The notes beneath the pieces were generated by a model. It was not told where the DNA came from, did not search any database, and saw nothing but the letters and a program-made list of their open reading frames with translations. Position numbers and translations under genes: made by a program. From assembly GCF_014171475.1 (NCBI RefSeq), contig NZ_CP048817.1:4742501-4806500 (forward strand): a DNA stretch of 64,000 bases, read 5' to 3'. Origin of the DNA: Sphingomonas sp. So64.6b. GTDB lineage: Bacteria > Pseudomonadota > Alphaproteobacteria > Sphingomonadales > Sphingomonadaceae. Of the stretch, positions 19,418 through 36,775 are shown one piece after another (within the stretch, counting starts at the first letter, position 1; every line of letters starts with the position of its first letter).

Positions 19418-19526
19418 TTGAGACGGACCCTTAAAGACGTCGATCGATGCCGACCGGGCCTGGCGGAAGCCAGCCTTGGGACGAGCCTGGCGACGACCAA
19501 GTCACTGCAATCCCGGGGTAATGAGA

Positions 19527-21883: not shown

Positions 21884-22537
21884 CTAACCCCTGGCTTCTG
21901 CTGGCAGCGCGATTTCGCCGTCGCCGTGCAGCGTCAGCAGTGACTCCATCAGCCCCTCATCGGCGCTCGAACATACGCCGAGCACCAGCGCTTCGTCATG
22001 GCCCGGCGCGGTCAGATAGGCGTGGCCCATGTTCGAATCGATATAGATCGATTCGCCTTTTTTGAGCACGACCGGATCGTAGAATTCGGTGTGGATCTCG
22101 ATCCCGCCTTCGATGACGAAGATATATTCCTCGCCCGAATGATGGACCAGTTCGCCAAACTCGGCGACGCTCTTGGCGCGGATCTTGGTCAGCACGGGGA
22201 TCATCCGTTTCCGGCGCAGTTCGGTGCACAGATAATAATAATCGTAATTGGGCGTCTCGACATGCACCGCGCGCGCCATGTCGCCGATGCTGCGCCGTGC
22301 GGTGACCGCCTGTTCGGCCGTACCGGTCGATTCGGCGAACAGTTCCGACATGCGCAAACCAAGCCGCTGGCTGAGCTGCAGCAGCTTGTCATAGGTCAGG
22401 GTGAGGCGGTCATGCTCGATCTTGGACAGAGTCGAAACGGGGATGCCGCTTTTCGCGCTCATCTCCTTCAGCGTCCAGCCTTCGCGGGTGCGCAATCCTC
22501 GGAGCAGCGCGCCGAGCGTGGGATTGGTCGAAGCCAC
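21884..22537 (-). CDS. XRE-family regulator with cupin domain
   Basis: The 217-residue protein joins an N-terminal helix-turn-helix (residues 8-65; TLKEMSAKSGIPVSTLSKIEHD) to a C-terminal cupin barrel (about residues 110-195; VHHSGEEYIFVIEGGIEIHTEFY and GESIYIDSNMGHAYL). Cupin-bearing XRE proteins sense small ligands and often control amino-acid, polyamine or peptide catabolism. It is divergent from the serine-hydrolase operon starting at 22682, and a 12-base element in the shared gap recurs before the second operon at 28191. It is therefore the likely local regulator of the whole 22.7-36.8 kb locus. Confidence 0.88.
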   Translation of the reverse strand: MASTNPTLGALLRGLRTREGWTLKEMSAKSGIPVSTLSKIEHDRLTLTYDKLLQLSQRLGLRMSELFAESTGTAEQAVTARRSIGDMARAVHVETPNYDYYYLCTELRRKRMIPVLTKIRAKSVAEFGELVHHSGEEYIFVIEGGIEIHTEFYDPVVLKKGESIYIDSNMGHAYLTAPGHDEALVLGVCSSADEGLMESLLTLHGDGEIALPAEARG

Positions 22538-22539
22538 AG

Positions 22540-22597
22540 TGTCAATTCTCTCCCGGGATCATATTGACAATTCTCTGATTAGGATCATCATGTCCCA
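22540..22597 (+). promoter_or_regulatory. Promoter/operator copy 1 of peptide locus
   Basis: Two direct copies of TGWCAATTCTCT (22540-22551 and 22565-22576) lie in the gap between the XRE-cupin gene and the serine-hydrolase operon. The second is part of a strong -35 box TTGACA (22564-22569). Downstream is the partial palindrome GGAT-N6-GTCC (22582-22595) near the -10 region. The same arrangement is repeated at 28190-28221. The sharing is visible directly; binding by the XRE-cupin protein is inference. Confidence 0.65.
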
Positions 22598-22681
22598 ATC
22601 AGAACATTTCGACCAAGGTAATGGTTCATCCGCGGCGAGGCAATCCCGACCGCGGGGATACCGGAAAAGAGGGACCTGGAC

Positions 22682-24685
22682 ATGCGATCGATCAAGTTAT
22701 TCGCCGCGGCAGCTTTGCTGCTGATCGGCGGCGTTACCGCCGCGCAGCAGTCCGCGCCGCTGGCGCCGACGCTCGCACCGGCCCCCGCCGGCAAACCGGT
22801 GATCGCTGCGGCGACTCCCGCCGCGCCGCTTGGCGAAGGACAGGCGCCACTGAACAAGCAGGATCTCGACGCCTGGCTCGACGGTTACATGCCCTATGCG
22901 CTGAAGACCGGCGATATTGCCGGCGCGGTGGTGGTCGTGGTCAAGGACGGCCAGATCGTCTCGAAGCGCGGCTTCGGTTATGCCGATATCGCCAAGCGCA
23001 AGCCGGTCGATCCCGATCTGACGCTGTTCCGGCCCGGCTCGGTGTCCAAGCTGTTCACCTGGACCGCGGTCATGCAGCAGGTCGAGGCGGGCAAGATCGA
23101 TCTCGATGCCGATGTGAATAAATATATCGATTTCAAGATTCCGCTGAAGGACGGCAAGCCCGTCACGATGCGTGAAATCATGCAGCACACCACGGGTTTC
23201 GAAGAGCATGGCAAGGACATCATGTTCTACGATGCGAAGAACCTGAAGACGCTCGGCAATTATGTGAAGGAAGGACTGCCGCACCGTATCTTCACGCCGG
23301 GCAGCACGCCTGCCTATTCGAACTATGCGACCGCACTCGCCGGCTATATCGTCGAGCGGACCAGCGGCCTGTCGTTCGACGACTATATCGACCAGCGCGT
23401 CTTCAAGCCGCTCGGCATGGCGCATTCGACCTTTCGCCAGCCTTTGCCGACACAGTTCACGCCGCTGATGGCGACGGGGTATCCGCAAGCCTCGGAAGAT
23501 CCGATCAAGTACGAGATCGTCGGGCCGGGGCCGGCGGGCAGCCTGGCCTCTTCCGGCACCGACATGGCGCGTTTCATGGTCGCGCATCTCAATCAGGGCG
23601 CCGGGCTGATGAAACCCGAAACCGCGCGGATCATGCATGATTCCCCGTTGACCGTCGTGCCGCCGCTCAACCGCATGGAACTCGGTTTCTTCGAAACCAA
23701 CATCAATGGCCGCCAGGTCATCGCCCATCTCGGCGACACCACCGTGTTCCACACGTCGCTGCACCTTTTCATGAAGGAAAATGTCGGCTTCTACGTGTCG
23801 TTCAACAGCGCCGGAAAGAACGGCGCGGTCGGCGCGCTGCGGGGTGCGATGTTCCAGGATTTCGCCGACCGCTACCTGCCCTCGATCGCGCCCGCCGATG
23901 GCAAGGTCGATGCCAAGACCTCGGCCGAACATGCCAAGCTGATGGTCGGCAATTGGCTCAACAGCCGTCGCGACGAAACCAATTTCATGGCGATCGGCAA
24001 TCTCATCGGACAGGTCGCGATCAGCGTAGACGGCAAGGGCAATCTCGTCGTGCCGGCCGCGCACGCGCTTAACGGTGCGCCGATGAAATGGGTCGAGATC
24101 GCGCCGTTCGTGTGGCGCCAGGTCGGCGGGCATGAACGCCTCGCCGCCAAGGTCGTCGACGGAAAGGTCGTGCGCTGGAGCTTCGACGGTGTCTCGCCGT
24201 TCATGGTCTTCGACCGCGCTCCCGCCTCGCAATCGGCGGCCTGGATCATGCCGTTGCTGTACGCCAGTATCGGCATTCTCCTCCTGACCTTGCTGCAATG
24301 GCCGGTCGCCGCGCTGATCCGCCGTCGTTACAAGGCGCCGCTCGCGCTGGAAGGGCGCGCCCGCCAGGCCTATCGCGGCGTTCGCGCCGGTGCCGGACTG
24401 GTGCTGATCATGCTGGTCGGCTGGATGATCGGCTTCTCCAAGCTGACCGGCGATATCGCCAACCTCACCGCGTCGTCCGACGGCATGTTGTGGTCGCTCC
24501 AGATCCTCGGCGCGCTCGCCTTTGTCGGCGGCGTACTGCTCGCCGGCTGGAACCTGTGGCTGACCTGGAAAGATAAGCGTGGCTGGTTCGCCAAGCTGTG
24601 GTCGGTGCTGGTGCTGATCGCGATGCTGACCGTCCTCTACGTGGCATGGACCTTCGGTCTGCTCGCCATGACGGTGCTTTACTGA
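22682..24685 (+). CDS. Beta-lactamase-fold serine hydrolase with C-terminal membrane domain
   Basis: The 667-residue protein has a signal peptide, an Ala/Pro-rich linker (residues 21-55) and a class C beta-lactamase/D-peptidase domain with Ser120-x-x-Lys123 (RPGSVSKLF) and Tyr212-Ser-Asn214. A C-terminal part follows with four hydrophobic helices from about residue 520. Such penicillin-binding-like enzymes act on D-amino-acid peptides, esters or beta-lactams outside the cytoplasm; the helices would anchor it in the inner membrane. It is the first gene of an operon with an epimerase and a peptide carrier, overlapping the epimerase gene by one base. It is probably a periplasmic peptidase or esterase, not a resistance enzyme. 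Confidence 0.85.
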   Translation: MRSIKLFAAAALLLIGGVTAAQQSAPLAPTLAPAPAGKPVIAAATPAAPLGEGQAPLNKQDLDAWLDGYMPYALKTGDIAGAVVVVVKDGQIVSKRGFGYADIAKRKPVDPDLTLFRPGSVSKLFTWTAVMQQVEAGKIDLDADVNKYIDFKIPLKDGKPVTMREIMQHTTGFEEHGKDIMFYDAKNLKTLGNYVKEGLPHRIFTPGSTPAYSNYATALAGYIVERTSGLSFDDYIDQRVFKPLGMAHSTFRQPLPTQFTPLMATGYPQASEDPIKYEIVGPGPAGSLASSGTDMARFMVAHLNQGAGLMKPETARIMHDSPLTVVPPLNRMELGFFETNINGRQVIAHLGDTTVFHTSLHLFMKENVGFYVSFNSAGKNGAVGALRGAMFQDFADRYLPSIAPADGKVDAKTSAEHAKLMVGNWLNSRRDETNFMAIGNLIGQVAISVDGKGNLVVPAAHALNGAPMKWVEIAPFVWRQVGGHERLAAKVVDGKVVRWSFDGVSPFMVFDRAPASQSAAWIMPLLYASIGILLLTLLQWPVAALIRRRYKAPLALEGRARQAYRGVRAGAGLVLIMLVGWMIGFSKLTGDIANLTASSDGMLWSLQILGALAFVGGVLLAGWNLWLTWKDKRGWFAKLWSVLVLIAMLTVLYVAWTFGLLAMTVLY

Positions 24686-25695
24686 TGGCCGGGATCAAGC
24701 TCTCGGTCGCCAGTGAAACGCTCAGACTCGCCGCTCCCTTTCGTATCTCTGGCTATGTGTTCGACAGTGCGGATGTGGTCGTCGTCACATTGGATGACGG
24801 CGATCACCAGGGGCGCGGCGAGGCGTCGGGGGTCTATTATCTCGGCGACGACGTGCCCGCGATGCTCGCCGCTATCGAGGAGGCACGGGACGCGGTCGAG
24901 GGCGGCATCTCGCGCGACGAATTGCGCGACCTGTTGCCCGCCTGCGGTGCGCGCAACGCGATCGATGCGGCACTGTGGGAGCTTGAATCCAGGCAGACGG
25001 GCAAGCCGGTCTGGGCGCTGGCGGGGCTCGACGCGCCGCGTCCGCTGGTCACCACCTTCACGCTCGGCGCGGATGAGCCGGCAAAGATGGCCGACGGCGC
25101 GCGTGCTTACGACCATGCGCGATCGATCAAGGTCAAACTGACCGGCGACCTCGCGCTCGACATCGCGCGGGTCGAGGCGATCCGCGCCGCGCGGCCCGAT
25201 GTGTGGTTGGGTGTCGATGGCAATCAGGGCTTTGCGATCGGCGATCTCGACGCGCTGGTTACAGCGATGGTCGCCGCCAATGTCTCGCTGATCGAACAGC
25301 CGCTCGCGCGCGGTCGCGAAGCCGATCTCGACGGGTATCGCTCGCCGATCCCGATCGCGGCGGACGAAAGCGCGCTGACGCTCGCCGATGTTCCCACGCT
25401 GGCCGGCCGGTTCGATGTGTTCAACATCAAGCTCGACAAATGTGGGGGGCTGACCGAGGGGCTGATGATTGCCGCCGCGGCGCGGGCCGCGGGACTCGGC
25501 GTGATGGTCGGCAACATGGTGTGCACCAGCCTGGGCATGGCGCCGGGCTTCGTGCTCGGCCAGCTGTGCGACCTCAACGATCTGGACGGGCCGATCTTCC
25601 TCAAACGGGATCGCACGCCGGGCATGATCTATCGCGACGGCACCGCCTGGTGTCCCGAAGCGGTGTGGGGCGCCGAAGCCCGAGTCCCCGCGTGA
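24685..25695 (+). CDS. dgcA: Enolase-superfamily dipeptide epimerase / N-acyl-amino-acid racemase (DgcA-like)
   Basis: The 336-residue enzyme has the muconate-cycloisomerase-subgroup active site: Lys149-Val-Lys151, metal ligands Asp178 (GVDGNQ), Glu204 (IEQP) and Asp227 (AADES), and the second base Lys249 (NIKLDKCGG). Two-lysine members epimerise L-Ala-D/L-Glu dipeptides or racemise N-acetyl-D-glutamate (DgcA). In the described D-glutamate pathway DgcA works with the DUF1611 protein DgcN, and a DUF1611 gene is encoded in this same locus at 31766. The ATG at 24685 shares one base with the previous stop. The family is secure; the choice between dipeptide and N-acetyl-glutamate substrate is inference from context. 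Confidence 0.75.
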   Translation: MAGIKLSVASETLRLAAPFRISGYVFDSADVVVVTLDDGDHQGRGEASGVYYLGDDVPAMLAAIEEARDAVEGGISRDELRDLLPACGARNAIDAALWELESRQTGKPVWALAGLDAPRPLVTTFTLGADEPAKMADGARAYDHARSIKVKLTGDLALDIARVEAIRAARPDVWLGVDGNQGFAIGDLDALVTAMVAANVSLIEQPLARGREADLDGYRSPIPIAADESALTLADVPTLAGRFDVFNIKLDKCGGLTEGLMIAAAARAAGLGVMVGNMVCTSLGMAPGFVLGQLCDLNDLDGPIFLKRDRTPGMIYRDGTAWCPEAVWGAEARVPA

Positions 25696-26990
25696 CCGAT
25701 ACGGGGCCCGAGCCGACCTGGTTCGGCCAGCCACGCGGCCTTACCGTGTTGTTCCTGACCAATATGTGGGAGCAATTCTCCTATTACGGCATGCGTGCGC
25801 TGCTGGTCTATTACATGACCAAGCAGTTGCTGCTGGGGCAGGGGCATTCGTCGTTCATCTATGGCGCCTATACCGCCTGCGCCTATTTCACCCCGATCAT
25901 CGGCGGGGTGATCGCCGACCGGTTGCTCGGCAAGCGCCGCGCGGTGATCATCGGCGCCAGCATCATGGCCGCCGGGCATTTCATGATGACGTTCGAGGCA
26001 CTTTTTTATGCCGGGCTGATCACCATCGCACTGGGCAACGGCCTGTTCCTTCCGAGCCTACCGAGCCAGATCAACGACCTCTACAAGGCGGGCGATCCGC
26101 GCCGCGGCTGGGCCTATAATGTCTATTATGTCGGCGTGAACATCGGCGGATTCCTTGCGCCGCTGATCTGCGGCACGCTCGGCGAAGTCTATGGCTGGCA
26201 TTATGGTTTCGGCGCTGCCGGGATCGGCATGCTGATCGGCCTGATCATCTATGTGAAGGGACAGCGCTACCTCCCGCCCGAGGCACCGCGCGTACCGACC
26301 GAGGATCTGCCCGCGACGCGCTGGGCCGATCACAAGCGTGTTTTCTTGGTGCTGCTCGCCATCGCCCTGTCGGTCACGGTATTCCGCGGCGCTTATGAAC
26401 AGGTCGGCAATACCGTCGCGCTATGGGCCGATACCGGCGTCGACCGATCGATGGGCAGCGTGTCGATCCCGATGACCTGGTTCCAGTCACTCAACCCGCT
26501 GATGGTGATGCTGATGACGCCGCCCTTGCTCGCTTATTGGCGCCGTCGCGCCGATGCCGGGCGCGACACCTCGCCAGCGCGGCGCATGGCGCTTGGCGCG
26601 ATGATCGTCGCGGCCGCCTATCTGTTGCTCGCGCTGATCGAATGGACCGGCGGCGGTGCGCGCGCCGACTGGCTGTGGTTCGTGCTGTTCTTCGCGATCT
26701 TCACGCTCGGCGAATTGTTCATCCTGCCGACCGGGCTTGGCCTGTTCGCACGGCTTGCGCCGCCGCGGCTCGGCGCGACCACGGTTGCCGCCTGGTACCT
26801 CGCGATCTTCAGCGGCAGTTTGTCCGCCGGGCTGGTCGGCATGTTGTGGAGCCGTACCGGGCACGCGTCATTCTTTGCCCTGCTGGCGATGATCGCGGTG
26901 GCGGCCGCCGCCTTGTTGCGTGCGCTCGACCGGCCGGTGCGCAGCGTCGATCCGACCTGGATCGCGACGAACCGAAATGCGGAGTCGTGA
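25692..26990 (+). CDS. POT/PTR-family peptide transporter
   Basis: The 432-residue membrane protein belongs to the proton-coupled oligopeptide transporters: it has an early NMWEQFSYYGMRALLVYYM helix, followed by GGVIADRLLGKRRAV, and about 12 hydrophobic helices. Canonical POT proteins carry ExxERF at the first motif; here the segment reads WEQF, so one proton-coupling residue differs from the paralogue at 50521. It is shorter than the usual 480-530 residues. The GTG start at 25692 overlaps the epimerase stop by 4 bases. It probably brings di- or tripeptides into the cytoplasm for the epimerase and related enzymes. Confidence 0.82.
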   Translation: MTDTGPEPTWFGQPRGLTVLFLTNMWEQFSYYGMRALLVYYMTKQLLLGQGHSSFIYGAYTACAYFTPIIGGVIADRLLGKRRAVIIGASIMAAGHFMMTFEALFYAGLITIALGNGLFLPSLPSQINDLYKAGDPRRGWAYNVYYVGVNIGGFLAPLICGTLGEVYGWHYGFGAAGIGMLIGLIIYVKGQRYLPPEAPRVPTEDLPATRWADHKRVFLVLLAIALSVTVFRGAYEQVGNTVALWADTGVDRSMGSVSIPMTWFQSLNPLMVMLMTPPLLAYWRRRADAGRDTSPARRMALGAMIVAAAYLLLALIEWTGGGARADWLWFVLFFAIFTLGELFILPTGLGLFARLAPPRLGATTVAAWYLAIFSGSLSAGLVGMLWSRTGHASFFALLAMIAVAAAALLRALDRPVRSVDPTWIATNRNAES

Positions 26991-28165
26991 CCCAAGGCCA
27001 GGTGACGCGACGGGGTGCGCTCGGCATCGGCATGACCGCCATGGCGGCCGCGACACCGATCGCGCGCGCCGCCGTGCCGGATGCGTGGGCGGGCGCGGAC
27101 GCCGCCGCCAGAGCGGTGATAGACAAGCGGCTTGCGCCGGGCGTCTCCTATGCGGTGATGCGCGACGGGAGGATCGTCCACAGCTTCTATGCCGGACTCG
27201 CCAATATGGAGGCGGGTACGGTTCCCGCGCCACACAGCCCGTGGCGGATCGGTTCGCTCAGCAAGCAATTCACCGTGGCCGCGCTGTTCCTGCTTGCCGA
27301 ACAGGGCAAGCTGTCGCTCGACGATCCGCTCGCGCGGTACATGCCGGAGTTTCCGCGTGCCGATGCGATCAGGCTTCGCCAGATGCTCAATCATACCAGC
27401 GGGCTCGGCAATTATACCGATATCGAGAATGTGAAGCTGCTGCTCAACCTCGCCCGGTCCGACTATGACGATGCCGAGCTGGTTCAGCTCCTGCTGACGC
27501 AGGGCACGTCGTTCAAGTTCGAGGCGGGCAAGAGCTGGGCCTATAGCAACACCGCTTATGTCCTGCTTGGCATGGTCGCGGCCAGGGTGGCCGGGACACC
27601 GCTGGCGCGATTGTTGCGCGAAAGACTGTTCGATCCCCTGGGCCTGAACGACACACGTGCCGACGATGAGGCGGAGATCGTGCCCGGGCGAGTCTCGGGT
27701 TATACGCCGTCCACGACCGGCGCTGGCTTTGCCAACGCATCGTTTCTTTCGCTGAGCTTTGTCGGGGCGGCGGGCAATCTCCGCTCGACCGTCACCGATC
27801 TGTGCCGCTGGCACGACCGCTTGCTTGGTGGGCACGTGCTCCAGCCGGCAAGTCTGGCGGCGATGCTCGCGCCGGTGCGGCTGGCGGACGGCACGCTCGC
27901 GATGGAAGGCGAAGGCGCGAAGCGGGCACCGAGCGGCCATGTTATGGGCCTGCAGGTGGCGACGAGCGAGCAGGGGCGAGTCATCTCGCACACCGGTGGC
28001 CTGATGGGCTTCGTCGCGCGGATGAAAAGTTTTCCCGATCGCGGCACGACGGTTGCGCTCATGGTGAATTGCGAAGGCGGTTTCGGGGCGCCCACCGGCC
28101 TGCGCGAAGCGGCGATCGCATTGGAAGCGGAGGCCGCAAGGACGGTCAACGGCAACGTCCGCTAA
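26987..28165 (+). CDS. Beta-lactamase-fold serine hydrolase, Tat-type signal
   Basis: The 392-residue protein has a twin-arginine-like leader (TRRGALGIGMTAM), then a serine beta-lactamase/D-aminopeptidase-type domain with Ser90-x-x-Lys93 (GSLSKQF), Tyr186-Ser-Asn188 and a third motif HTGG. It is probably exported folded to the periplasm and cleaves a D-amino-acid-containing peptide or ester. The GTG at 26987 overlaps the peptide-carrier stop by 4 bases and follows GGAG. It closes the first operon of the locus; the next operon starts 90 bases later behind a repeated promoter. Confidence 0.85.
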   Translation: MTQGQVTRRGALGIGMTAMAAATPIARAAVPDAWAGADAAARAVIDKRLAPGVSYAVMRDGRIVHSFYAGLANMEAGTVPAPHSPWRIGSLSKQFTVAALFLLAEQGKLSLDDPLARYMPEFPRADAIRLRQMLNHTSGLGNYTDIENVKLLLNLARSDYDDAELVQLLLTQGTSFKFEAGKSWAYSNTAYVLLGMVAARVAGTPLARLLRERLFDPLGLNDTRADDEAEIVPGRVSGYTPSTTGAGFANASFLSLSFVGAAGNLRSTVTDLCRWHDRLLGGHVLQPASLAAMLAPVRLADGTLAMEGEGAKRAPSGHVMGLQVATSEQGRVISHTGGLMGFVARMKSFPDRGTTVALMVNCEGGFGAPTGLREAAIALEAEAARTVNGNVR

Positions 28166-28189
28166 ATCGGTCTTTAGTTTCGATTAGCG

Positions 28190-28221
28190 TTGACAATTCT
28201 CTGATCAGGACAATACAGTCC
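28190..28221 (+). promoter_or_regulatory. Promoter/operator copy 2 of peptide locus
   Basis: TTGACAATTCTCTGAT begins at 28190, identical to the sequence at 22564, followed by AGGA and the perfect palindrome GGAC-AATACA-GTCC (28208-28221) covering the probable -10 region. It lies 35 bases before the M19 dipeptidase start. The repetition of a long promoter stretch 5.6 kb apart shows co-regulation of the two operons. Confidence 0.7.
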
Positions 28222-28255
28222 CAAATAGGTCATAAACGCGAGGAAGGGGATTCGT

Positions 28256-29401
28256 ATGGCAGATTTGCCCGGTTTCAATCGCCGCGTCGTGATCGGAAGC
28301 CTGGTTGCGGGCTCTGCGCTTGGTTTCCCGATGATCAATTCGGGCAGCTTCGCCGCCGCGCCGGGATCGGCGAAACGCTATTCGAAGCGCACGCTCGACC
28401 TGCTCGACAAGACCCTGGTCATCGACATGCTCGCGGTGCCCAAGATCGACTTTTCACCCGATGTCTTTTCGCGCCCGCTGACCGCGCAGCAGATCGCCGA
28501 TTTCCGCAGTTGCGGGATCACCGGCTTTCATAATTCCGAAGGTGTCGGCGGGCCGGATGCACGCGAGCAGGCACTGACCTTCCTCGCCGCCTGGCAGGGC
28601 TTTGCCGGACGCAACAGCGACCTGTTCTCGCTGGTCGGCAGCGTACACGATCTCGATCGCGCCAAGAAGGAGCGCAAGATCGGCATGATCATGGGCCTCC
28701 AGAACGCCGAACAATTCTCCACGCCCGACGATGTGCTGCTGTTCTACCGGCTGGGCCTGCGCTGCGCCCAGCTCACCTACAACACGCAGAATTTGATCGG
28801 ATCGGGCAGCACCGACCGGGTCGATGGCGGGGTCAGCGATTTCGGCGCGGACATCATCGCCGCAATGAACTCGGCGGGCATGCTCGTCGATGTGTCGCAC
28901 AGCGGCGACCGCACCACGCTCGACGCGATCAAGTTGTCGAAACAGCCGATCGCGATCACTCATTCCAACTGCCGTGCCTTGTCCAACCACCCGCGTGCCA
29001 AGACCGACGAAGCGATCCTCGCGCTCGGCAAGACCGATGGCGTGATGGGGATCAGCGGCGTGCGCATGTTCGTCAGGGACAAGGATCCGACCACGCTGTC
29101 GGACATGGTCGATCACATCGATCATGTCGTGAAGCTGATCGGGATCGAGCATGTCGGCATCGGGTCGGACGCGGATCTCAACGGCTATGACGACATGCCG
29201 CCCGACCAATATGCCCGGCTCAAGGCGGGCTACAAGGCGAGCTACGCCTTTCGCGACAAGATCGACATCGAGGGGTTCGACCATCCGATGAAGATGTTCG
29301 ACCTGACCGAGGAACTGATCCGGCGCGGCTGGTCCGATGCCAATATCGCGCCCGTGCTCGGCGGAAACTTCCGCCGGCTGCTCGGCGCCGTGTGGAAATA
29401 G
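28256..29401 (+). CDS. M19 membrane-dipeptidase-like protein with altered metal site
   Basis: The 381-residue protein has a Tat-like leader (FNRRVVIGSLVAGSALG) and a renal-dipeptidase (M19) barrel. The ligands of one metal are present: His215 (DVSHS), His236 (THSNCRAL) and the GSDADL segment. The usual first motif D-G-H-x-D is replaced by DMLAV (residues 57-61), and the bridging Glu of GVEGG is replaced by Gln149 (GLQNAE). It therefore probably binds one metal or has another reaction. Normal M19 enzymes cleave dipeptides, including those with a C-terminal D-residue. It is the first gene of the second operon, followed by a TonB receptor. Confidence 0.8.
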   Translation: MADLPGFNRRVVIGSLVAGSALGFPMINSGSFAAAPGSAKRYSKRTLDLLDKTLVIDMLAVPKIDFSPDVFSRPLTAQQIADFRSCGITGFHNSEGVGGPDAREQALTFLAAWQGFAGRNSDLFSLVGSVHDLDRAKKERKIGMIMGLQNAEQFSTPDDVLLFYRLGLRCAQLTYNTQNLIGSGSTDRVDGGVSDFGADIIAAMNSAGMLVDVSHSGDRTTLDAIKLSKQPIAITHSNCRALSNHPRAKTDEAILALGKTDGVMGISGVRMFVRDKDPTTLSDMVDHIDHVVKLIGIEHVGIGSDADLNGYDDMPPDQYARLKAGYKASYAFRDKIDIEGFDHPMKMFDLTEELIRRGWSDANIAPVLGGNFRRLLGAVWK

Positions 29402-29444
29402 CGGCCGCGAAGACGGCTCGAACGACATTCAAGGGGAAAAGATC

Positions 29445-31757
29445 ATGACCAATATTCGCAAGACGCTCGGCGCCACCACCGCATTTTCGATGTTCCTGCT
29501 CGCCCTACCGGCCTTTGCCCAGCAGGGGCCGTCGGTCGAGGAAGCGGCCGCGGCACCGGATAATGACGACATCATCGTCACCGCACAGAAGCGCGAACAG
29601 ACGCTGTTCGAAATCCCCCAGTCGATCGCAGTGGTCGGTGGCAGCACGCTTTTACGTCAGCAGGCGGTGAGCTTCGTCGATTATGCCGCGCTGGTCCCCG
29701 GCCTTACCATCCAGCAGGACAATCCCGGCGAGGCGCGCGTGGTCTTGCGTGGTATTAATACCGGTTCAGTCGGATCGACTGTCGGTATTTATGTTGACGA
29801 AACGCCGTATGGTTCGAGTTCGAGCTTGGGTAATGCCGGCGTGCTGGCTGGCGACTTCGACACGTTTGATCTCGCCCGAGTCGAAGTATTGCGCGGTCCG
29901 CAGGGCACGCTCTACGGCGCGAATTCACTCGGCGGCGTGCTCAAGTTCGTAACCAACGCGCCCAAGCTCGACACGTTCGAAGTGCGTGGCCAGGCCGGGC
30001 TCGAAAAAATCGAAGATGGCGGCACTGGTTATCTCGGCAACGCGGTGGTCAATCTTCCACTCGGCAAAACGCTCGCCCTCCGCGCCAGTGGTTTTTATCG
30101 CAAGAATGCCGGCTTCATTGATGCGACCGGACGATCGGGCGAGAACATCAATCAATCCGAAGTCTATGGCGGTCGCGCGTCGTTGTTGTTCCAGCCCGTC
30201 GATGCCTTGTCGGTGCGTCTGACGGCGGTCGCGCAGAACATCCGTGCCAATTCGCCATCGTCCTACGACGCCGATCCGGTGACGTTCCGGCCGCTTGCGG
30301 CCGACCCGTTTACCGGCGCCGCGCTCAACGGGCAGCTGACTCGGGCAGAATTCTTCCCCGACAGCAACAAGGTCGATTACCGGCTGTATAACGGCACGCT
30401 GCGCTACGATTTCGGCTTTGCGAACCTCACCTCGGTGACCAGCTACGGCATTCTCGACCAGCGTCAGCTGATTGACGCCTCGATCACGCTGGGTGGCACG
30501 ATCAACGCCGTCTATGGCGGCACGACGCCACTGGGCGTCGCGCTGCAAGCCGATATCAAACAGAAAAAATTCACTCAGGAGGTGCGCCTCGCCTCGGCCG
30601 ATTCGGAAAGCTTCGAATGGCTGATCGGCGGTTATTATACGCGTGAGACGGTCGGCCTTTTCCAACGCTATGCGCCGTTTATCGACGGCACGACCGATTT
30701 CATCGATCCGACACTGAACATTGGCGGCACGGTGTTTCCGCAATTTCTCACCGTCTCGCTGGATTCGGTCTATAAGGAATATGCCGCATTCGGCAGCGCG
30801 ACGCTTCACCTGTTGCCGAGCTTCGATATTACTGCGGGCGGCCGTTACAGTCACAATGATCAGCATTCGGTGCAGATTCAGGATGGCGCCTATCTGCCAT
30901 TGGTCGGCATCCCGTTCATTCCGTTCGTCACCAACGGCAAGTCGGACGAGAATGTGTTCACCTGGTCGGTCGCGCCGCGCTTCGAACTGAGCGATCATGC
31001 CTCAATCTATGCGCGTGTCGCGAAGGGTTATCGCCCCGGCGGTCCCAACGTCGTACCGCCCGGCGCCGCCGCCGACTATCCGGTCACGTTCAAGGCCGAC
31101 ACGCTGATCAGTTATGAGGTCGGCGTGCGGGCCGAAACTGCGGATCGCACCTTTGGAATTGACGCTTCGGTATATTATCTCGATTGGAAGAACATCCTGG
31201 TGTTCGGCTCCTATGACAGCGCCGTCGGGCCGATCGGCGCCAACGCCAATGGCAAAAGGGCGCGCAGCTACGGTGCGGAAGCGACCGCGACGATCCGCCC
31301 GATCGCCGGGTTCAGTGTCGTGCTTAACGCCGCGTACAATGATGCCAAGCTGAGGCAGAGTACACCCGAAGTCACGGGCGGGCTGAAAGGCGATCAGTTG
31401 CCATTCTCTCCAAAATGGAGCGCGAACCTGAGCGCGGATTACGAATGGGCTATATCAGGTAGCGCCAAGGCTTTCGTTGGCGGCAATGTTCGGCTGGTTG
31501 ACGATCAAGCGGCGGATTTCGATGTTGCATACCGCGCGGCCTTCGGCCGTCGACTGGTGCTCGATGGATATGGAACCGTCGATCTGCGGGCCGGTGTCGA
31601 TCTTGGCGCGGTGACAATCACCGCTTATGCCAAAAACCTCGCGAACGAACGCGCCTTTACCAATCTTTCGGGCTTTGGCACGCGACCCGGCACCGCGCTC
31701 GCCGCATCGCCGATCCGTCCGCGAACGATCGGCGTCAATCTCGGCTTCGCGTTCTGA
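29445..31757 (+). CDS. TonB-dependent outer-membrane receptor
   Basis: The 770-residue receptor has a signal peptide ending near AFAQQ, a TonB-box-like DDIIVTAQKREQ segment, a plug with VEVLRGPQGTLYGANSLGGVL, and a barrel ending in LGFAF. The ATG at 29445 follows AAGGGGA; the upstream open frame overlaps the dipeptidase and is rejected. It is placed inside the peptide locus, 43 bases after the M19-like gene and 8 bases before the DUF1611 gene, so it probably imports the peptide substrate through the outer membrane. The middle part has somewhat more A/T-ending codons than its neighbours. Confidence 0.9.
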   Translation: MTNIRKTLGATTAFSMFLLALPAFAQQGPSVEEAAAAPDNDDIIVTAQKREQTLFEIPQSIAVVGGSTLLRQQAVSFVDYAALVPGLTIQQDNPGEARVVLRGINTGSVGSTVGIYVDETPYGSSSSLGNAGVLAGDFDTFDLARVEVLRGPQGTLYGANSLGGVLKFVTNAPKLDTFEVRGQAGLEKIEDGGTGYLGNAVVNLPLGKTLALRASGFYRKNAGFIDATGRSGENINQSEVYGGRASLLFQPVDALSVRLTAVAQNIRANSPSSYDADPVTFRPLAADPFTGAALNGQLTRAEFFPDSNKVDYRLYNGTLRYDFGFANLTSVTSYGILDQRQLIDASITLGGTINAVYGGTTPLGVALQADIKQKKFTQEVRLASADSESFEWLIGGYYTRETVGLFQRYAPFIDGTTDFIDPTLNIGGTVFPQFLTVSLDSVYKEYAAFGSATLHLLPSFDITAGGRYSHNDQHSVQIQDGAYLPLVGIPFIPFVTNGKSDENVFTWSVAPRFELSDHASIYARVAKGYRPGGPNVVPPGAAADYPVTFKADTLISYEVGVRAETADRTFGIDASVYYLDWKNILVFGSYDSAVGPIGANANGKRARSYGAEATATIRPIAGFSVVLNAAYNDAKLRQSTPEVTGGLKGDQLPFSPKWSANLSADYEWAISGSAKAFVGGNVRLVDDQAADFDVAYRAAFGRRLVLDGYGTVDLRAGVDLGAVTITAYAKNLANERAFTNLSGFGTRPGTALAASPIRPRTIGVNLGFAF

Positions 31758-31765
31758 TCGGCGGG

Positions 31766-32821
31766 ATGATGTCAGGCACCAATGTCATGCGTGAACCGCG
31801 CGAGCGGGCGTTCGGGGCACTTCCGCAACCCTATCTCCTATTCCTCGGGGATACGACCGAGCCGGGTTATGCCAAGACCGCGTTCGGCCTGCGCGACTGG
31901 GCACGCGATTCCTGCGTCGGCGAATTCGCGCTCGCCGGGGCAAGCGTGTCGACCGGGTTGCCACGCCTCTCCCCGGCCGAGGCGCGACTGCGCGGGGCGC
32001 GGTCCATGGTCATTGGCGTCGCCAATTCGGGTGGGCTGATCCCGGACAGCTGGATCGGTGGTCTGGTCGAGGCGCTCGAGGCCGGGCTGGACCTGGTCAG
32101 CGGCATGCATATGAAGCTGAGCGATATGCCCGCCTTGCGCAGCGCCGCCGACCGCCTTGGTCGTGACCTGATCGACGTGCGCACGCCGCCGCCGGGCATT
32201 CGCGTCGGCAGCGGTGCGAAGCGCGGCGGCAAGCGGCTGCTGACCGTCGGCACCGATTGCGCGCTGGGCAAGAAATATACCGCGCTCGCCATCGCCCGCG
32301 CGTTCAAGGCACGCGGCGTCGCGGCCGATTTCCGTGCTTCCGGACAGACCGGCATCATGATCGCCGGCGGCGGCATTCCGATGGACGCGGTGGTGTCGGA
32401 TTTCATTGCCGGCGCGGCGGAAATGCTCAGCCCCGCTGCCGCGCCCGATCATTGGGATGTGATCGAGGGGCAGGGGTCGTTGTTCCATCCGGCCTATGCC
32501 GCGGTGACGCTCGGCCTGCTGCATGGCAGCCAGCCCGATCTGTTCGTCGTCTGTCATGAACCCGGGCGAACCACCATGCTCGGTCATCCCGGTTACACCC
32601 TGCCGTCGATCGAGACGGTGATCGAACAAACCGTTGCGCTTGGCCGGCTGACCAATCCGGCGATCCGATGCGTCGGGATCAGCCTCAACACCGCCACGCT
32701 TGGCAGCGATACGGCGGCGGCACTGATCGCCGCCGAATCGGACCGCCTCGGCTTGCCGGTGGCCGACCCGATCCGCGGCGGCGCCGCGTTCGAGCAACTC
32801 ATCGACGCGTGCCTCGCATGA
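31766..32821 (+). CDS. dgcN: DUF1611 P-loop protein, DgcN-like D-glutamate N-acetyltransferase family
   Basis: The 351-residue protein shows the DUF1611 layout: an N-terminal Rossmann-like domain with PGYAKTAFGLRDWARD and GVANSGG, then a P-loop domain with GTDCALGKKYT (residues 162-172), RASGQTGIMIAGGGIPMDAVVSDF and GQGSLFHPAYA. In the described D-glutamate pathway DgcN of this family makes N-acetyl-D-glutamate, which DgcA racemises; a DgcA-like gene is present at 24685. The gene starts 8 bases after the TonB receptor and overlaps the YkvI-like carrier by 4 bases. The function is inferred from family and partner. The start could also be at the ATG at 31787. Confidence 0.75.
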   Translation: MMSGTNVMREPRERAFGALPQPYLLFLGDTTEPGYAKTAFGLRDWARDSCVGEFALAGASVSTGLPRLSPAEARLRGARSMVIGVANSGGLIPDSWIGGLVEALEAGLDLVSGMHMKLSDMPALRSAADRLGRDLIDVRTPPPGIRVGSGAKRGGKRLLTVGTDCALGKKYTALAIARAFKARGVAADFRASGQTGIMIAGGGIPMDAVVSDFIAGAAEMLSPAAAPDHWDVIEGQGSLFHPAYAAVTLGLLHGSQPDLFVVCHEPGRTTMLGHPGYTLPSIETVIEQTVALGRLTNPAIRCVGISLNTATLGSDTAAALIAAESDRLGLPVADPIRGGAAFEQLIDACLA

Positions 32822-33948
32822 CCAAGGCAGCGGCAGGCGCCGGGCCAAGCTGGTTCCAGCGCTTCCTGCTGCCCGGGTTCGCCTTCAAGGCGGTGATCAT
32901 CGGCGGCGGTTATGCGACGGGCCGCGAGCTCGCCGAATTCTTCCTGCCGAGCGGCCCGTGGGGCGGGCTCGCCGGCATGATCCTGGCGATGCTGATCTGG
33001 AGCGTGGTCGCCGCCGCCACTTTCCTGTTCGCGCGGATGACCGGTGCGCGCGACTATCGCAGCTTCTTCGAGGCCTTGCTCGGGCGTGGCTGGGCGGTGT
33101 TCGAGATCGCCTATATCCTGTTCATCGTGCTGATCCTCGCGGTGTTCGGTGCAGCGGCGGGAGCGATCGCGCAGGCCGCGCTTGGCTTGCCGCCGATCAT
33201 CGGCACGCTTGCGCTGATGGCGGGAATCGCGACCTTTGCCGGCTATGGCAACACAGCGGTCGAGCAGCTGTTCAAATATGTCTCGTTCCTGCTCTACGGC
33301 GTCTATGCGTTGTTTCTGGTCCTTGCACTGTCCGGCTTTGGCGAGCGCATCGCCACCGGCTTCGCTTTGCCCGCCGTCTCGGATGGCTGGGCACTCGGGG
33401 GCATCACTTATGCCGGCTACAACATCATCGGCGCGGTGGTGATCCTGCCGGTGTTGCGTCATATGACCAGCGACCGCGATGCGATCGTCGCCGGGCTGAT
33501 CGCCGGGCCGCTGGCGATGATCCCGGCGATCATCTTCTTCGTGTGCATGATCGCCTTTTATCCGCAGATTGGCGCCGAGGTGTTGCCGTCGGATTATCTG
33601 CTCACGCAACTCGGCAACCCGATATTCCATCTGCTGTTCCAGCTGATGATTTTCGCCGCGCTGCTCGAAAGCGGCACCGGCGCGGTCCATGCGGTCAACG
33701 AACGTGTCGCCAAGGCCTGGCATATCCGCCGCGGCGCGGTGCTCGGCAATGGCTGGCGCCTGACGATCGCGATCGCGCTGCTTGTCATGTGCATGCTGCT
33801 CGCCGATCGCTTCGGGCTCGTGACCCTGATCGCCAAGGGCTATCGCGCGCTCGCCTATATCTTCCTCGCCGTCTACGTCCTGCCGCTGATGACGCTCGGC
33901 GTCTTCCGCTTGTGGCGCAGAGGCAACCCAGCTCCGGAGGTCCTATGA
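32818..33948 (+). CDS. YkvI-family membrane carrier
   Basis: The 376-residue inner-membrane protein has about ten helices and the YkvI-family start VIIGGGYATGRELAEFFLPSGPWGGL, resembling LeuT-fold amino-acid carriers. No member of this group is known to me with a proven substrate. The ATG at 32818 overlaps the DUF1611 stop by 4 bases, and its own stop overlaps the next serine-hydrolase gene by 4 bases. The tight coupling to DgcN-like and peptidase genes suggests it carries an amino acid or acylated amino acid of the same pathway, either inwards or outwards. Confidence 0.72.
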   Translation: MTKAAAGAGPSWFQRFLLPGFAFKAVIIGGGYATGRELAEFFLPSGPWGGLAGMILAMLIWSVVAAATFLFARMTGARDYRSFFEALLGRGWAVFEIAYILFIVLILAVFGAAAGAIAQAALGLPPIIGTLALMAGIATFAGYGNTAVEQLFKYVSFLLYGVYALFLVLALSGFGERIATGFALPAVSDGWALGGITYAGYNIIGAVVILPVLRHMTSDRDAIVAGLIAGPLAMIPAIIFFVCMIAFYPQIGAEVLPSDYLLTQLGNPIFHLLFQLMIFAALLESGTGAVHAVNERVAKAWHIRRGAVLGNGWRLTIAIALLVMCMLLADRFGLVTLIAKGYRALAYIFLAVYVLPLMTLGVFRLWRRGNPAPEVL

Positions 33949-35522
33949 AGCGGTTCGTATTCGCATTTGCGCTCGCATCGACCCAGCTCGCCACGCCGCT
34001 CTGGGCGGCGCCGCCCAAGGATCTCGAGGCGCGCGTCGAAACCTTGCGCAAGGCGGCCGGTGTGCCCGGCATGGCGATCGCCATCGTCGAGGACGGCAAG
34101 ACCGTGCTGGCGCGCGGCTGGGGTGAGAAGAAACTCGGTTCGAACGATCCGGTCACGCCCAATACCATCTTCCCGACCGGATCGACCGGCAAGGCGTTTA
34201 CCGTGGCGGCGCTTGCCACGCTGGTCGATGCCGGCAAGATCGGCTGGGACGACAAGGTGATCGACCGCTTGCCCGGCTTCCAGATGTACGATCCCTGGGT
34301 GACGCGTGAGATGACGATCCGCGACCTGCTGGTCCATCGCAGCGGCCTCGGCCTCGGCGCGGGCGACCTGTTGTTCGTACCGCGCAGCGACCTGCCGCGC
34401 GCCGAAGCGGTCAAGCGGCTGCGCTATATCAAGCCGGCGACCAGTTTTCGCAGCGGCTATGCCTATGACAATGTCCTCTACATGGTCGCCGGCCAGCTGA
34501 TCGAGTCCGTCTCGGGCGACACATGGGAGAAATATGTCGTCGACCATGTGCTGAGACCGGCTGGCATGACCGTATCGACCAGCGACGATGACAGCTATTT
34601 CGCCACCGCCGACCGGGCTCAGCCGCATGCGCGGATGAGCAGCGGGTTGCGCGGCGTCGGCAATCAGGAAGTGCTCGACGAGCGCGACGGCCTGGCGCGT
34701 AACGCAGCGCCGGCCGGTGGCCTCGCGGTCAGCCCGACCGACATGGCGAAATGGCTCGCCGTTCAGCTCGCGCACGGCAAGCTGCCTGGCGGGGGGCAGC
34801 TCTATAGCGAGGCGCAGGCGGCGGAAATGTGGGCGCCGGTGACGCTCCAGCCGATCTCGCCCAGGCCGGACAATCTGAAACTGACCCAGCCGATGTTCTA
34901 TACCTATGCGCTGGGCTGGGACGTGCAGGATTATCGCGGCGCGAAGATCATCTGGCACGGCGGCGCGGTGTTCGGTTTTCAGACCGCGGTGGTGCTGATC
35001 CCGGAAAAGAATGTCGGCTTCTCGATCGAGATCAACAGCGAGGATGGCGAGCTGATCGTCGGCCTGATGTACGAATTGCTCGACCATTATATGGATTTGC
35101 CCAAGGCCGACTGGCCGGAGAAATATGCCGCGTTCAAGAAAGAGCGCGTCGCCAAGGGGCTGGCGATGTTCAAGGCGAGCGCGGCCAAGCCGGCCAAGGT
35201 CGGCCCGTCGCTTGCGCTGACCCGTTACACCGGCATTTTTGCCGATCCATGGTATGGCAATATCGAAGTCGCGCAGGGTAAATCGGGCCTGACGATCGAT
35301 TTCAAATCGACCCCGCGCATGGGCGGGCGGCTCGACCATTGGCAATATGATACGTTCGTCACGCGTTTTGACGACAAGACAATCGAACCGGCCTATGTCA
35401 CTTTCGGTCTCGATGCCGAAGGTAAAGTGGAGCGTGTCACGATGAAGCCGGTCTCTCCGATTGCGGATTTCAGTTACGATTATCAGGATCTTCTCTTCGC
35501 ACCGGTCGCCGCGGCAAAATGA
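33945..35522 (+). CDS. Beta-lactamase-fold serine hydrolase
   Basis: The 525-residue exported enzyme has a signal peptide ending near PLWAA, Ser80-Thr-Gly-Lys83 (PTGSTGKAFT), Tyr174-Asp-Asn176 and an HGGAVFG third motif, followed by a C-terminal lipocalin-like domain of about 110 residues (starting near LTRYTGIFADPWYGN). This layout is common in class C-type serine hydrolases such as D-aminopeptidases and esterases. A GGAGG site precedes the ATG at 33945, which overlaps the carrier stop. It is the third such hydrolase in the locus, and its stop overlaps the next dipeptidase gene by 4 bases. Confidence 0.85.
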   Translation: MKRFVFAFALASTQLATPLWAAPPKDLEARVETLRKAAGVPGMAIAIVEDGKTVLARGWGEKKLGSNDPVTPNTIFPTGSTGKAFTVAALATLVDAGKIGWDDKVIDRLPGFQMYDPWVTREMTIRDLLVHRSGLGLGAGDLLFVPRSDLPRAEAVKRLRYIKPATSFRSGYAYDNVLYMVAGQLIESVSGDTWEKYVVDHVLRPAGMTVSTSDDDSYFATADRAQPHARMSSGLRGVGNQEVLDERDGLARNAAPAGGLAVSPTDMAKWLAVQLAHGKLPGGGQLYSEAQAAEMWAPVTLQPISPRPDNLKLTQPMFYTYALGWDVQDYRGAKIIWHGGAVFGFQTAVVLIPEKNVGFSIEINSEDGELIVGLMYELLDHYMDLPKADWPEKYAAFKKERVAKGLAMFKASAAKPAKVGPSLALTRYTGIFADPWYGNIEVAQGKSGLTIDFKSTPRMGGRLDHWQYDTFVTRFDDKTIEPAYVTFGLDAEGKVERVTMKPVSPIADFSYDYQDLLFAPVAAAK

Positions 35523-36775
35523 GCCGGATCACGAAGGCCAAGGGCCTGGTCGCATCGGTTGCGCTGCTGGCGTTCACCGTACCCGCTCACGCGCAGGATG
35601 AGGCGGCGCGTGTCGCACGCGTGCTCAAGACGACGCCGATCATCGATGGTCATAATGACTGGCCGGAGACGCTGCGCGAGCGCGAAGGCGAGGGGCGCTG
35701 GACGATCGACCTGCGCCGCGGTCTCGACCGCAAGCCCGAGCCGTACAACACCGATATCGAGCGGCTGCGCAAAGGCATGGTCGGCGGCCAGTTCTGGTCA
35801 GTCTATGTCTCGGCCAATCTGCCCGGGCCGGAACAGGTCAAGGAGACGCTCGAACAGATCGATTTCGTCCACCAATTGGCCGCGCGCTATCCGGAAACCT
35901 TCGCGCTCGCCCGCACCGCGGATGATGTCCGGCGCATCCAGCGCAGCGGCCGCATCGCCTCGATGATCGGTGTCGAGGGCGGCGGCCAGATCGACGGCAG
36001 CCTGTCGGTGCTGCGCACCTATCATGATCTTGGCGCGGGTTATCTGACGTTGACTCATTCGCTGACCATCGACTGGGCCGATTCCGCAACCGACAATCCG
36101 AAACATGACGGCCTGACCGCGTTCGGCGAGGAGGTGGTGCGCGAGCTCAACCGGCTCGGCATGCTGGTCGATCTCAGCCATGTCAGCGAAGCGACGATGC
36201 GCGACGCGCTGCGCGTGTCGAAGGCGCCGGTGATCTACTCGCATTCGGGCGCGCGGGCGCTCGACGACCATCCGCGCAACGTGTCCGACGATGTGCTCAA
36301 GCTGGTCGCGGCGAATGGCGGCGTGGTGATGGTCAATTATGCGCCGGGCTATGTCTCCGACGCCTATCGACGCTGGTCGGCGGACCGGGCGGCGGAGCGC
36401 ACACGGCTCAATGCGCCGCCTTTTGGCGGTCTCTATATCGGCCAGCCGGACAAAGCGAAGGCGGCGTTCGCCGAGTGGGAGAAGGATCATCCCGCACCAC
36501 GCGTGACGCTGGCGCAAGTGGCCGATCATATCGAGCATATCGCGAAGGTCGCCGGGCCGGACCATGTCGGCATCGGATCGGATTTCGACGGCACCGGCAA
36601 TGAGTTGCCCGACGGGCTGGGCGATGTCTCGACCTATCCGCAGCTTATGGCCGAACTGATGCGGCGCGGCTGGAGCGATGCGGATATCGCCAAGCTGGCC
36701 GGCGGCAACATCCTGCGCGTTATGGCAGCGGCGGAACAAACCGCTGCGTCGATGGCGTCGGCCAGGAAGCGTTAG
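35519..36775 (+). CDS. M19 membrane dipeptidase (intact)
   Basis: The 418-residue protein has a signal peptide (cleavage near AHAQDE) and a complete M19 binuclear metal site: His45-x-Asp47 (IIDGHND), bridging Glu153 (GVEGGG), His221 (DLSHVS), His242 (YSHSGARAL) and GSDFDG. It should hydrolyse dipeptides in the periplasm; enzymes of this family tolerate a D-residue at the C-terminal side. It closes the second operon, overlapping the serine-hydrolase gene by 4 bases, and complements the degenerate paralogue at 28256. Its stop directly abuts the stop of the convergent zinc-finger gene. Confidence 0.92.
   Translation: MSRITKAKGLVASVALLAFTVPAHAQDEAARVARVLKTTPIIDGHNDWPETLREREGEGRWTIDLRRGLDRKPEPYNTDIERLRKGMVGGQFWSVYVSANLPGPEQVKETLEQIDFVHQLAARYPETFALARTADDVRRIQRSGRIASMIGVEGGGQIDGSLSVLRTYHDLGAGYLTLTHSLTIDWADSATDNPKHDGLTAFGEEVVRELNRLGMLVDLSHVSEATMRDALRVSKAPVIYSHSGARALDDHPRNVSDDVLKLVAANGGVVMVNYAPGYVSDAYRRWSADRAAERTRLNAPPFGGLYIGQPDKAKAAFAEWEKDHPAPRVTLAQVADHIEHIAKVAGPDHVGIGSDFDGTGNELPDGLGDVSTYPQLMAELMRRGWSDADIAKLAGGNILRVMAAAEQTAASMASARKR

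Follow-up and report, generated by a model that had tools for sequence, protein, structure and literature searches.

D-amino acids form a large pool in soil and water that is degraded slowly. A pathway for D-glutamate that depends on the proteins DgcN and DgcA was reportedly described by Yu et al. in the ISME J in 2023. According to two papers that cite that work (PMC12363236 and PMC10845958), the pathway consists of a DUF1611 N-acetyltransferase and a racemase of the enolase superfamily. A 64,000-nucleotide stretch of the genome of Sphingomonas sp. So64.6b (hereafter the window) carries a relative of each enzyme, which we term DgcN2 and DgcA2, in a 15-kb locus at 21884-36775. The initial annotation had identified these proteins with the enzyme pair of that D-glutamate route. 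That identity was not upheld by our comparison, as the two proteins fall below both family cut-offs, form separate clades and have basic residues replaced. Instead, DgcN2-DgcA2 is predicted to be a sister to the D-glutamate pair with a changed side-chain pocket, and its D-amino acid substrate is more likely to be neutral (either hydrophobic/aromatic or an amide) than to be D-Glu.

The gene content, operon layout, two-site regulon, conservation, separate clades and residue replacements described below were all read directly from sequences. A search of the literature on the route or the gene combination, in which subscription papers were mostly not covered, found no paper on this locus.

The window pair and the canonical DgcN-DgcA pair

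The window pair has the same folds and catalytic residues as the enzymes of the DgcN-DgcA pathway, and DgcN2 has the N- and C-terminal DUF1611 domains and the DgcN fold. The genomic contexts differ, however, in that the pathway is found with a LysR regulator and an SDF carrier, whereas the window pair lies within a regulon of XRE-cupin, TonB, S12, M19, POT and YkvI genes; a Pfam scan found no LysR or SDF carrier of the canonical dgc operon at the window locus. DgcN2 scored 458 bits against NCBIfam model NF041892, below the cut-off of 480, and DgcA2 scored 355 bits against NF042940, below the cut-off of 400. Another pair in the same genome, at 0.909 Mb in an operon with the order LysR-DgcN-DgcA-amidohydrolase-SDF, was over both cut-offs (DgcN 504 versus 480, DgcA 431 versus 400). 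The two dgcN-dgcA pairs of the genome are 52% and 41% identical. In L003 (13659-15742), the canonical dgc operon of the genome adjoins T2SSE and TrbI-like conjugation or secretion genes.

The contrast set comprised 20 loci with flanks of ~6 kb that were chosen as likely canonical (47-62% identity, L110 included), 18 of which proved to be canonical. These 18 loci had DgcA in 17 cases, LysR in 16, the amidohydrolase in 13 and the SDF carrier in 10, and weak S12 and TonB matches were found in L106 only. In trees made by a quick method without bootstrap, for which a subset of the window-type sequences was used (26 DgcA rows and 32 DgcN rows), the window types formed one clade each, with Shimodaira-Hasegawa-like approximate likelihood ratio test (SH-aLRT) support of 97 for DgcN and 99 for DgcA. 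The E. coli L-Ala-D/L-Glu epimerase YcjG (1jpd) was placed on the canonical side of the DgcA tree. DgcA2 also differs from YcjG in its score against NF011708/PRK15129 (222 versus a cut-off of 343).

Comparison of 70 window-type with 18 canonical DgcA sequences (rows shorter than 280 residues were dropped) identified 22 columns that were at least 90% conserved within each set and yet different between the sets. Among these columns were (window-type/canonical) G23/R22, F26/K25, G49/P48, V50/Y49, Y52/R51, D55/E54, T153/D152, Q181/E178, N277/C274 and F305/W302. In the enolase superfamily, specificity is set by the 20s and 50s loops, which form a cap over the active site. Six of the 22 columns lie in these loops (19 residues, hypergeometric p 6e-4, the loop bounds having been fixed after the columns had been seen), and the basic loop residues that canonical DgcA has in common with YcjG are replaced by G23 in 69/70, F26 in 67/70 and Y52 in 67/70 window-type sequences. 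Canonical R22 aligned with Arg24 of YcjG, the equivalent of which in window-type DgcA2 is Gly in 69/70 and a gap in 1/70. The catalytic residues K149, K151, D178, E204, D227 and K249 of DgcA2, which are the enolase-superfamily lysines and metal ligands, were present in 70/70.

A corresponding comparison of DgcN (85 window-type and 19 canonical sequences, those shorter than 300 residues dropped) gave differences that include A46/R42 and L272/R268. The canonical proteins have R42 in 18/19 and R268 in 19/19, and the solved structure 7xrj, titled N-acetyltransferase DgcN-25328, has Arg at both positions. The clade-wide loss of basic residues from both enzymes would fit a substrate without an acidic side chain. 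Since the residues lost were conserved and charged, the substrate is probably not D-glutamate, and we consider a preference of the pair for a non-acidic D-amino acid to be fairly probable.

These comparisons also bear on a reading in which the same D-peptide path ends in a second copy of the D-Glu N-acetyltransferase and N-acetyl-D-Glu racemase, acting on D-Glu peptides, for instance muropeptides. We regard this as unlikely given that both proteins are under the equivalog cut-offs, that they belong to separate clades with basic loop residues replaced throughout, and that the genome already has a pair over both cut-offs together with an SDF carrier. D-glutamate was set aside as the default substrate because of the missed cut-offs, the separate clades and the replaced residues.

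Gene layout and a shared operator

The locus comprises eleven genes, namely a divergent XRE-cupin regulator gene and two tight operons with a common operator-promoter. Operon 1 (22682-28165) holds S12a, DgcA2, POT and S12b, and operon 2 (28256-36775) holds M19a, the TonB receptor, DgcN2, YkvI, S12c and M19b. The features are as follows, with signal peptide-like, twin-arginine and transmembrane-like calls made by a simple hydropathy and motif scan rather than a dedicated predictor.

21884..22537, minus strand: XRE-cupin regulator, HTH_3 and Cupin_2 (Pfam), GTG start, divergent; presumed repressor/sensor
22564..22588, plus strand: operator-promoter 1, -35 TTGACA with conserved spacer ATTCTCTGATTAGGATCAT
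22682..24685, plus strand: S12a, S12 domain (SVSK/YSN/HLG), signal peptide-like start and four C-terminal transmembrane-like segments
24685..25695, plus strand: DgcA2, enolase-superfamily (MR_MLE) racemase/epimerase, divergent from DgcA and YcjG
25692..26990, plus strand: POT/PTR2 oligopeptide:H+ symporter, TIGR00924 over cut-off
26987..28165, plus strand: S12b, twin-arginine start, SLSK/YSN/HTG
28190..28214, plus strand: operator-promoter 2, 5' of M19a
28256..29401, plus strand: M19a, M19 family, twin-arginine start, VIDML instead of the HxD zinc ligands
29445..31757, plus strand: TonB-dependent receptor (Pfam)
31766..32821, plus strand: DgcN2, P-loop protein with both DUF1611 domains (N and C), diverged from canonical DgcN
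32818..33948, plus strand: YkvI-family membrane carrier, eight transmembrane-like segments
33945..35522, plus strand: S12c, signal peptide-like start, STGK/YDN/HGG, C-terminal DUF3471
35519..36775, plus strand: M19b, M19 family with HND (HxD), signal peptide-like start

All the genes named in the initial annotation were recovered at these positions, by Pfam or, for YkvI, by the names of relatives. Its description of 1-4-base overlaps in both operons holds for six of the eight intra-operon junctions: S12a/DgcA2 overlap by 1 base, and DgcA2/POT, POT/S12b, DgcN2/YkvI, YkvI/S12c and S12c/M19b by 4 bases each. The other two junctions are gaps, of 43 bases between M19a and the TonB receptor (a value that depends on the receptor start, set at 29445 by choice) and of 8 bases between the receptor and DgcN2. 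Just 5' of the locus is a second TonB receptor gene (19476-21839, plus strand), without the operator of this regulon.

The SxxK, YxN and HxG motifs of the S12/Beta-lactamase family (PF00144) are kept in S12a, S12b and S12c, and the solved chains matched by the sequence of S12a include an alkaline D-peptidase and a D-Ala-D-Ala carboxypeptidase. M19b keeps the HxD zinc ligands, as HND, of the M19 dipeptidases (PF01244), and the top-scoring solved relative of M19a by sequence is 2i5g. The YkvI carrier had no Pfam match; some of its relatives are named "YkvI family membrane protein" or "uncharacterized membrane protein YkvI" in their source records.

The promoter element that had been noted as common to the two operons proved to be real and unusually specific. 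The sequence TTGACAATTYTCYRATYAGGAYNAT occurs at 22564-22588 and 28190-28214 with 0 mismatches at both, and these were the only two sites at up to 3 mismatches in the whole 5.06-Mb genome, where a reversed-pattern control gave 0. Without its first two bases, the pattern matched twice in the window when up to 3 mismatches were allowed, and in none of 100 shuffles. The conserved part of the element occupies the spacer between the -35 TTGACA and the presumed -10. As this is a usual position for a repressor site, the XRE-cupin protein probably controls both promoters as a repressor. Between the XRE gene and the good site, at 22541-22564, there is a second, weaker version of the operator core (GTCAATTCTCTCCCGGGATCATAT), which possibly serves autoregulation.

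Recurrence and spread of the gene set

Whether these genes occur together in other genomes was a check called for by the initial annotation, and the gene set did recur, both in selected loci and in a sample of the order. The selected loci were the best 79 of at least 517 relatives of DgcN2, with flanks of ~10 kb, some ended by contig edges; having been chosen as best matches, they are biased to near kin. By best BLASTP hit (E <=1e-10, at least 40% of the query), these 79 loci carried S12a in 77, DgcA2 in 69, XRE in 66, S12c in 61, YkvI in 57, the TonB receptor in 47, an amidohydrolase in 36, M19a in 35, M19b in 32 and POT in 27, with S12b in 1. The second set is less biased and consists of 13 loci, that is, all DgcN2 matches of at least 67% identity, except that of the window, from a sample of 197 genomes of the order. 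It had S12a in 13, XRE, YkvI and S12c in 12 each, DgcA2 and the TonB receptor in 11 each, a deacylase-like gene in 10, and M19a, M19b and POT in 6 each; the operator was present in 12 at up to 4 mismatches.

At this same threshold the operator was found in 61 of the 79 loci, and the reversed pattern gave 0 in the same 1.6 Mb. The 94 sites in the 79 loci were located before S12a (46), the TonB receptor (18), M19a (17), DgcN2 (5) and XRE (1), with 7 unassigned. None of the 18 canonical dgcN loci (230 kb) had the operator at up to 4 mismatches. The whole genomes of 38 among the 79 loci contained 56 operator sites at up to 2 mismatches, in 35 genomes, with 0 for the reversed control. Five of the 56 sites are outside the primary loci, and all five are followed by additional genes of the module: S12a-DgcA2-M19a-DgcN2-amidohydrolase; an amidohydrolase with S12 genes farther along; M19a-TonB-DgcN2-YkvI-S12c-M19b; M19a-YkvI; and DgcN2-amidohydrolase. 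In Sphingomonas sp. QA11, the genome of L016, an operator-bearing M19a-YkvI pair (L164, 485-12944) is followed by genes that by eye resemble those for histidine utilisation.

The combination is conserved across classes of Proteobacteria. By their record titles the hosts are sphingomonads, xanthomonads, Steroidobacteraceae, Caulobacteraceae and Oxalobacteraceae. The operator accompanies the gene set in most cases. One copy each from Caulobacter, Duganella and Novosphingobium grouped together in the DgcN tree (support 85-87, unstarred), which suggests horizontal spread. In an even sample of the phylum the operator was present in 2 of 398 genomes at up to 2 mismatches, both of the family of the window, which indicates that the system is patchy; among the 17 genomes listed for the same genus in the order sample, the window's included, window-type DgcN was found in the window's genome only. 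Elsewhere in the order, in other families, S12, M19, YkvI or TonB genes are often also present at loci that carry DgcN relatives of 53-60% identity. Four loci (L047, L049, L012 and L086) have two DgcN2 genes within 21 kb, showing local expansion of the family.

Proposed pathway and candidate substrates

Taken together, the genes are most naturally read as a D-peptide path from the outer membrane to the cytoplasm, of which we infer every biochemical step, the direction of regulation and the substrate. The TonB receptor would take up peptides with D-residues, and the five exported hydrolases (three S12 and two M19) would trim these in the periplasm. POT would bring in small peptides, and free D-amino acids would probably enter by YkvI. 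DgcN2 would then N-acetylate the D-amino acid with acetyl-CoA, DgcA2 would racemise the N-acetyl-D to the N-acetyl-L amino acid, and a hypothetical further deacetylase would free the L-amino acid. The XRE-cupin protein, by binding the spacer site of both promoters, would probably repress both operons. Thus the co-regulated two-operon locus, the conserved combination and the D-peptide path of the initial annotation are retained, without the D-glutamate identity of the enzymes.

We are confident that the locus would serve peptides with D-residues. The full reading, in which D-peptide import, periplasmic trimming, carrier uptake, N-acetylation with racemisation and XRE-cupin control would all serve a neutral D-amino acid, has about an even chance of being correct. 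More tentatively, we propose that a second, unrecognised DgcN-DgcA subfamily may N-acetylate and racemise neutral or aromatic D-amino acids at the end of a dedicated, horizontally spread D-peptide uptake regulon that has an XRE-cupin regulator and a spacer operator of its own. If so, there would be a general bacterial way of turning non-glutamate D-residues of peptides into L-amino acids by a co-regulated path from the outer membrane to the cytoplasm, built on a changed N-acetylation route. An entire branch of the DUF1611 and DgcA-like proteins would also be spared the label of D-glutamate enzymes.

For the last enzyme of the pathway, we considered an amidohydrolase that is part of the regulon in related genomes. 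It belongs to the family of D-aminoacylase and N-acyl-D-glutamate deacylase (1m7j, 3gip), but no such gene is at the window locus. Because the two closest copies in the genome have signal peptide-like starts, this amidohydrolase is a doubtful candidate for the missing deacetylase. A search for the M20 family gave 20 matches in the genome, none of which was assigned.

POT shares an operon with DgcA2, and DgcA2 might therefore be a dipeptide epimerase that converts L-X-D-Y to L-X-L-Y in POT-imported peptides, ordinary peptidases following and DgcN2 acting separately on free D-amino acids. The kept DxD motif (D299, D301) agrees with this, as do the solved structures ranked next after 4gfi for the DgcA2 model, which are dipeptide epimerases, some with bound dipeptides. 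However, POT was found at 27/79 and 6/13 DgcN2 loci, versus 69/79 and 11/13 for DgcA2, and this difference favours a joint DgcN-DgcA reaction. We consider a dipeptide epimerase rather unlikely.

The target might also be one special natural product, such as a non-ribosomal peptide or lipopeptide with D-residues. MlrB of the mlr microcystin-degradation cluster of sphingomonads is an S12-type hydrolase, and in ClbP an S12 domain is followed by C-terminal membrane segments. In the mlr literature, MlrD is oligopeptide transporter-like. The window locus resembles the mlr cluster in combining an S12-type hydrolase with a POT-like carrier for D-residue peptides, and S12a has C-terminal membrane segments after its S12 domain, as does ClbP; deacylase-like amidohydrolases in 36/79 and 10/13 loci would also suit a special product. 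Unlike the mlr cluster, the locus had no gene of the MlrA or MlrC type in the families that were found, mlr genes as such not having been searched for. Furthermore, no single-substrate enzyme was conserved among the classified genes, and hosts this varied point to a common substrate. We consider a special product improbable.

Turning again to DgcN2-DgcA2 acting jointly on a neutral D-amino acid, two hints bear on which residue this might be. PMC12363236 treats dgcN as the key gene for D-amino acids that are acidic and for the amides of these, and the tie to amides makes D-Asn or D-Gln possible. The second hint comes from gene neighbours. An Lrp regulator and an amino-acid dehydrogenase gene are located directly 3' of M19b in 7/79 loci and 1/13 sampled loci. 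In the window's genome, a relative of the regulon-type deacylase is at 3.337 Mb and is 66% identical to the copy that follows the operator in L165; in the stretch L172 8955-16270 this deacylase adjoins relatives of the Lrp regulator and the dehydrogenase (72% and 62% identical). The closest match of the L172 dehydrogenase is ScyB (294 bits against a cut-off of 600), and genes for phenylalanine 4-monooxygenase and an aromatic transaminase are no more than 4 kb away. This neighbourhood weakly favours hydrophobic or aromatic residues.

Several observations weigh against our interpretation. The Lrp and dehydrogenase link comes from few, related genomes. The argument from Arg24 of YcjG presumes that this residue is a ligand of the glutamate side chain, and it is tempered by the B. 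thetaiotaomicron L-Ala-D-Glu epimerase (3iji), which lacks Arg at that column and has Arg at the K25 column. Position 24 of DgcA2 is His in 41/70 sequences and could carry charge. The DxD motif, presumably used by dipeptide epimerases for the free ammonium group, fits dipeptides and N-acetyl substrates alike. The two Args lost in DgcN2 may lie outside its active site, and the pattern is mixed in other families, whose DgcN2-like proteins keep R at 46 in 13/17. M19a lacks HxD, with the other ligand motifs kept, and HxD is likewise absent from 40/40 M19a sequences in an alignment (the window's own, 34 of the 79-locus set and 5 from elsewhere), and S12b was a best match in only 1/79 loci. The next DgcN2-like match, L110 at 62% identity, carries almost none of the module. 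Lastly, no operator was found at up to 2 mismatches in two Duganella genomes and Novosphingobium sp. AP12; one of the two Duganella genomes has a single site at 3 mismatches.

Two other roles were considered and rejected. For peptidoglycan recycling proper, no muramoyl amidase or LD-carboxypeptidase was among the locus families found, the genome not having been searched for either. For a role in defence, PADLOC gave the regulator weak helix-turn-helix matches only, and the eight other proteins that were tried had no match. The module was also found in Sphingosinicella microcystinivorans and Sphingopyxis microcysteis (L062 and L054), species named for microcystin.

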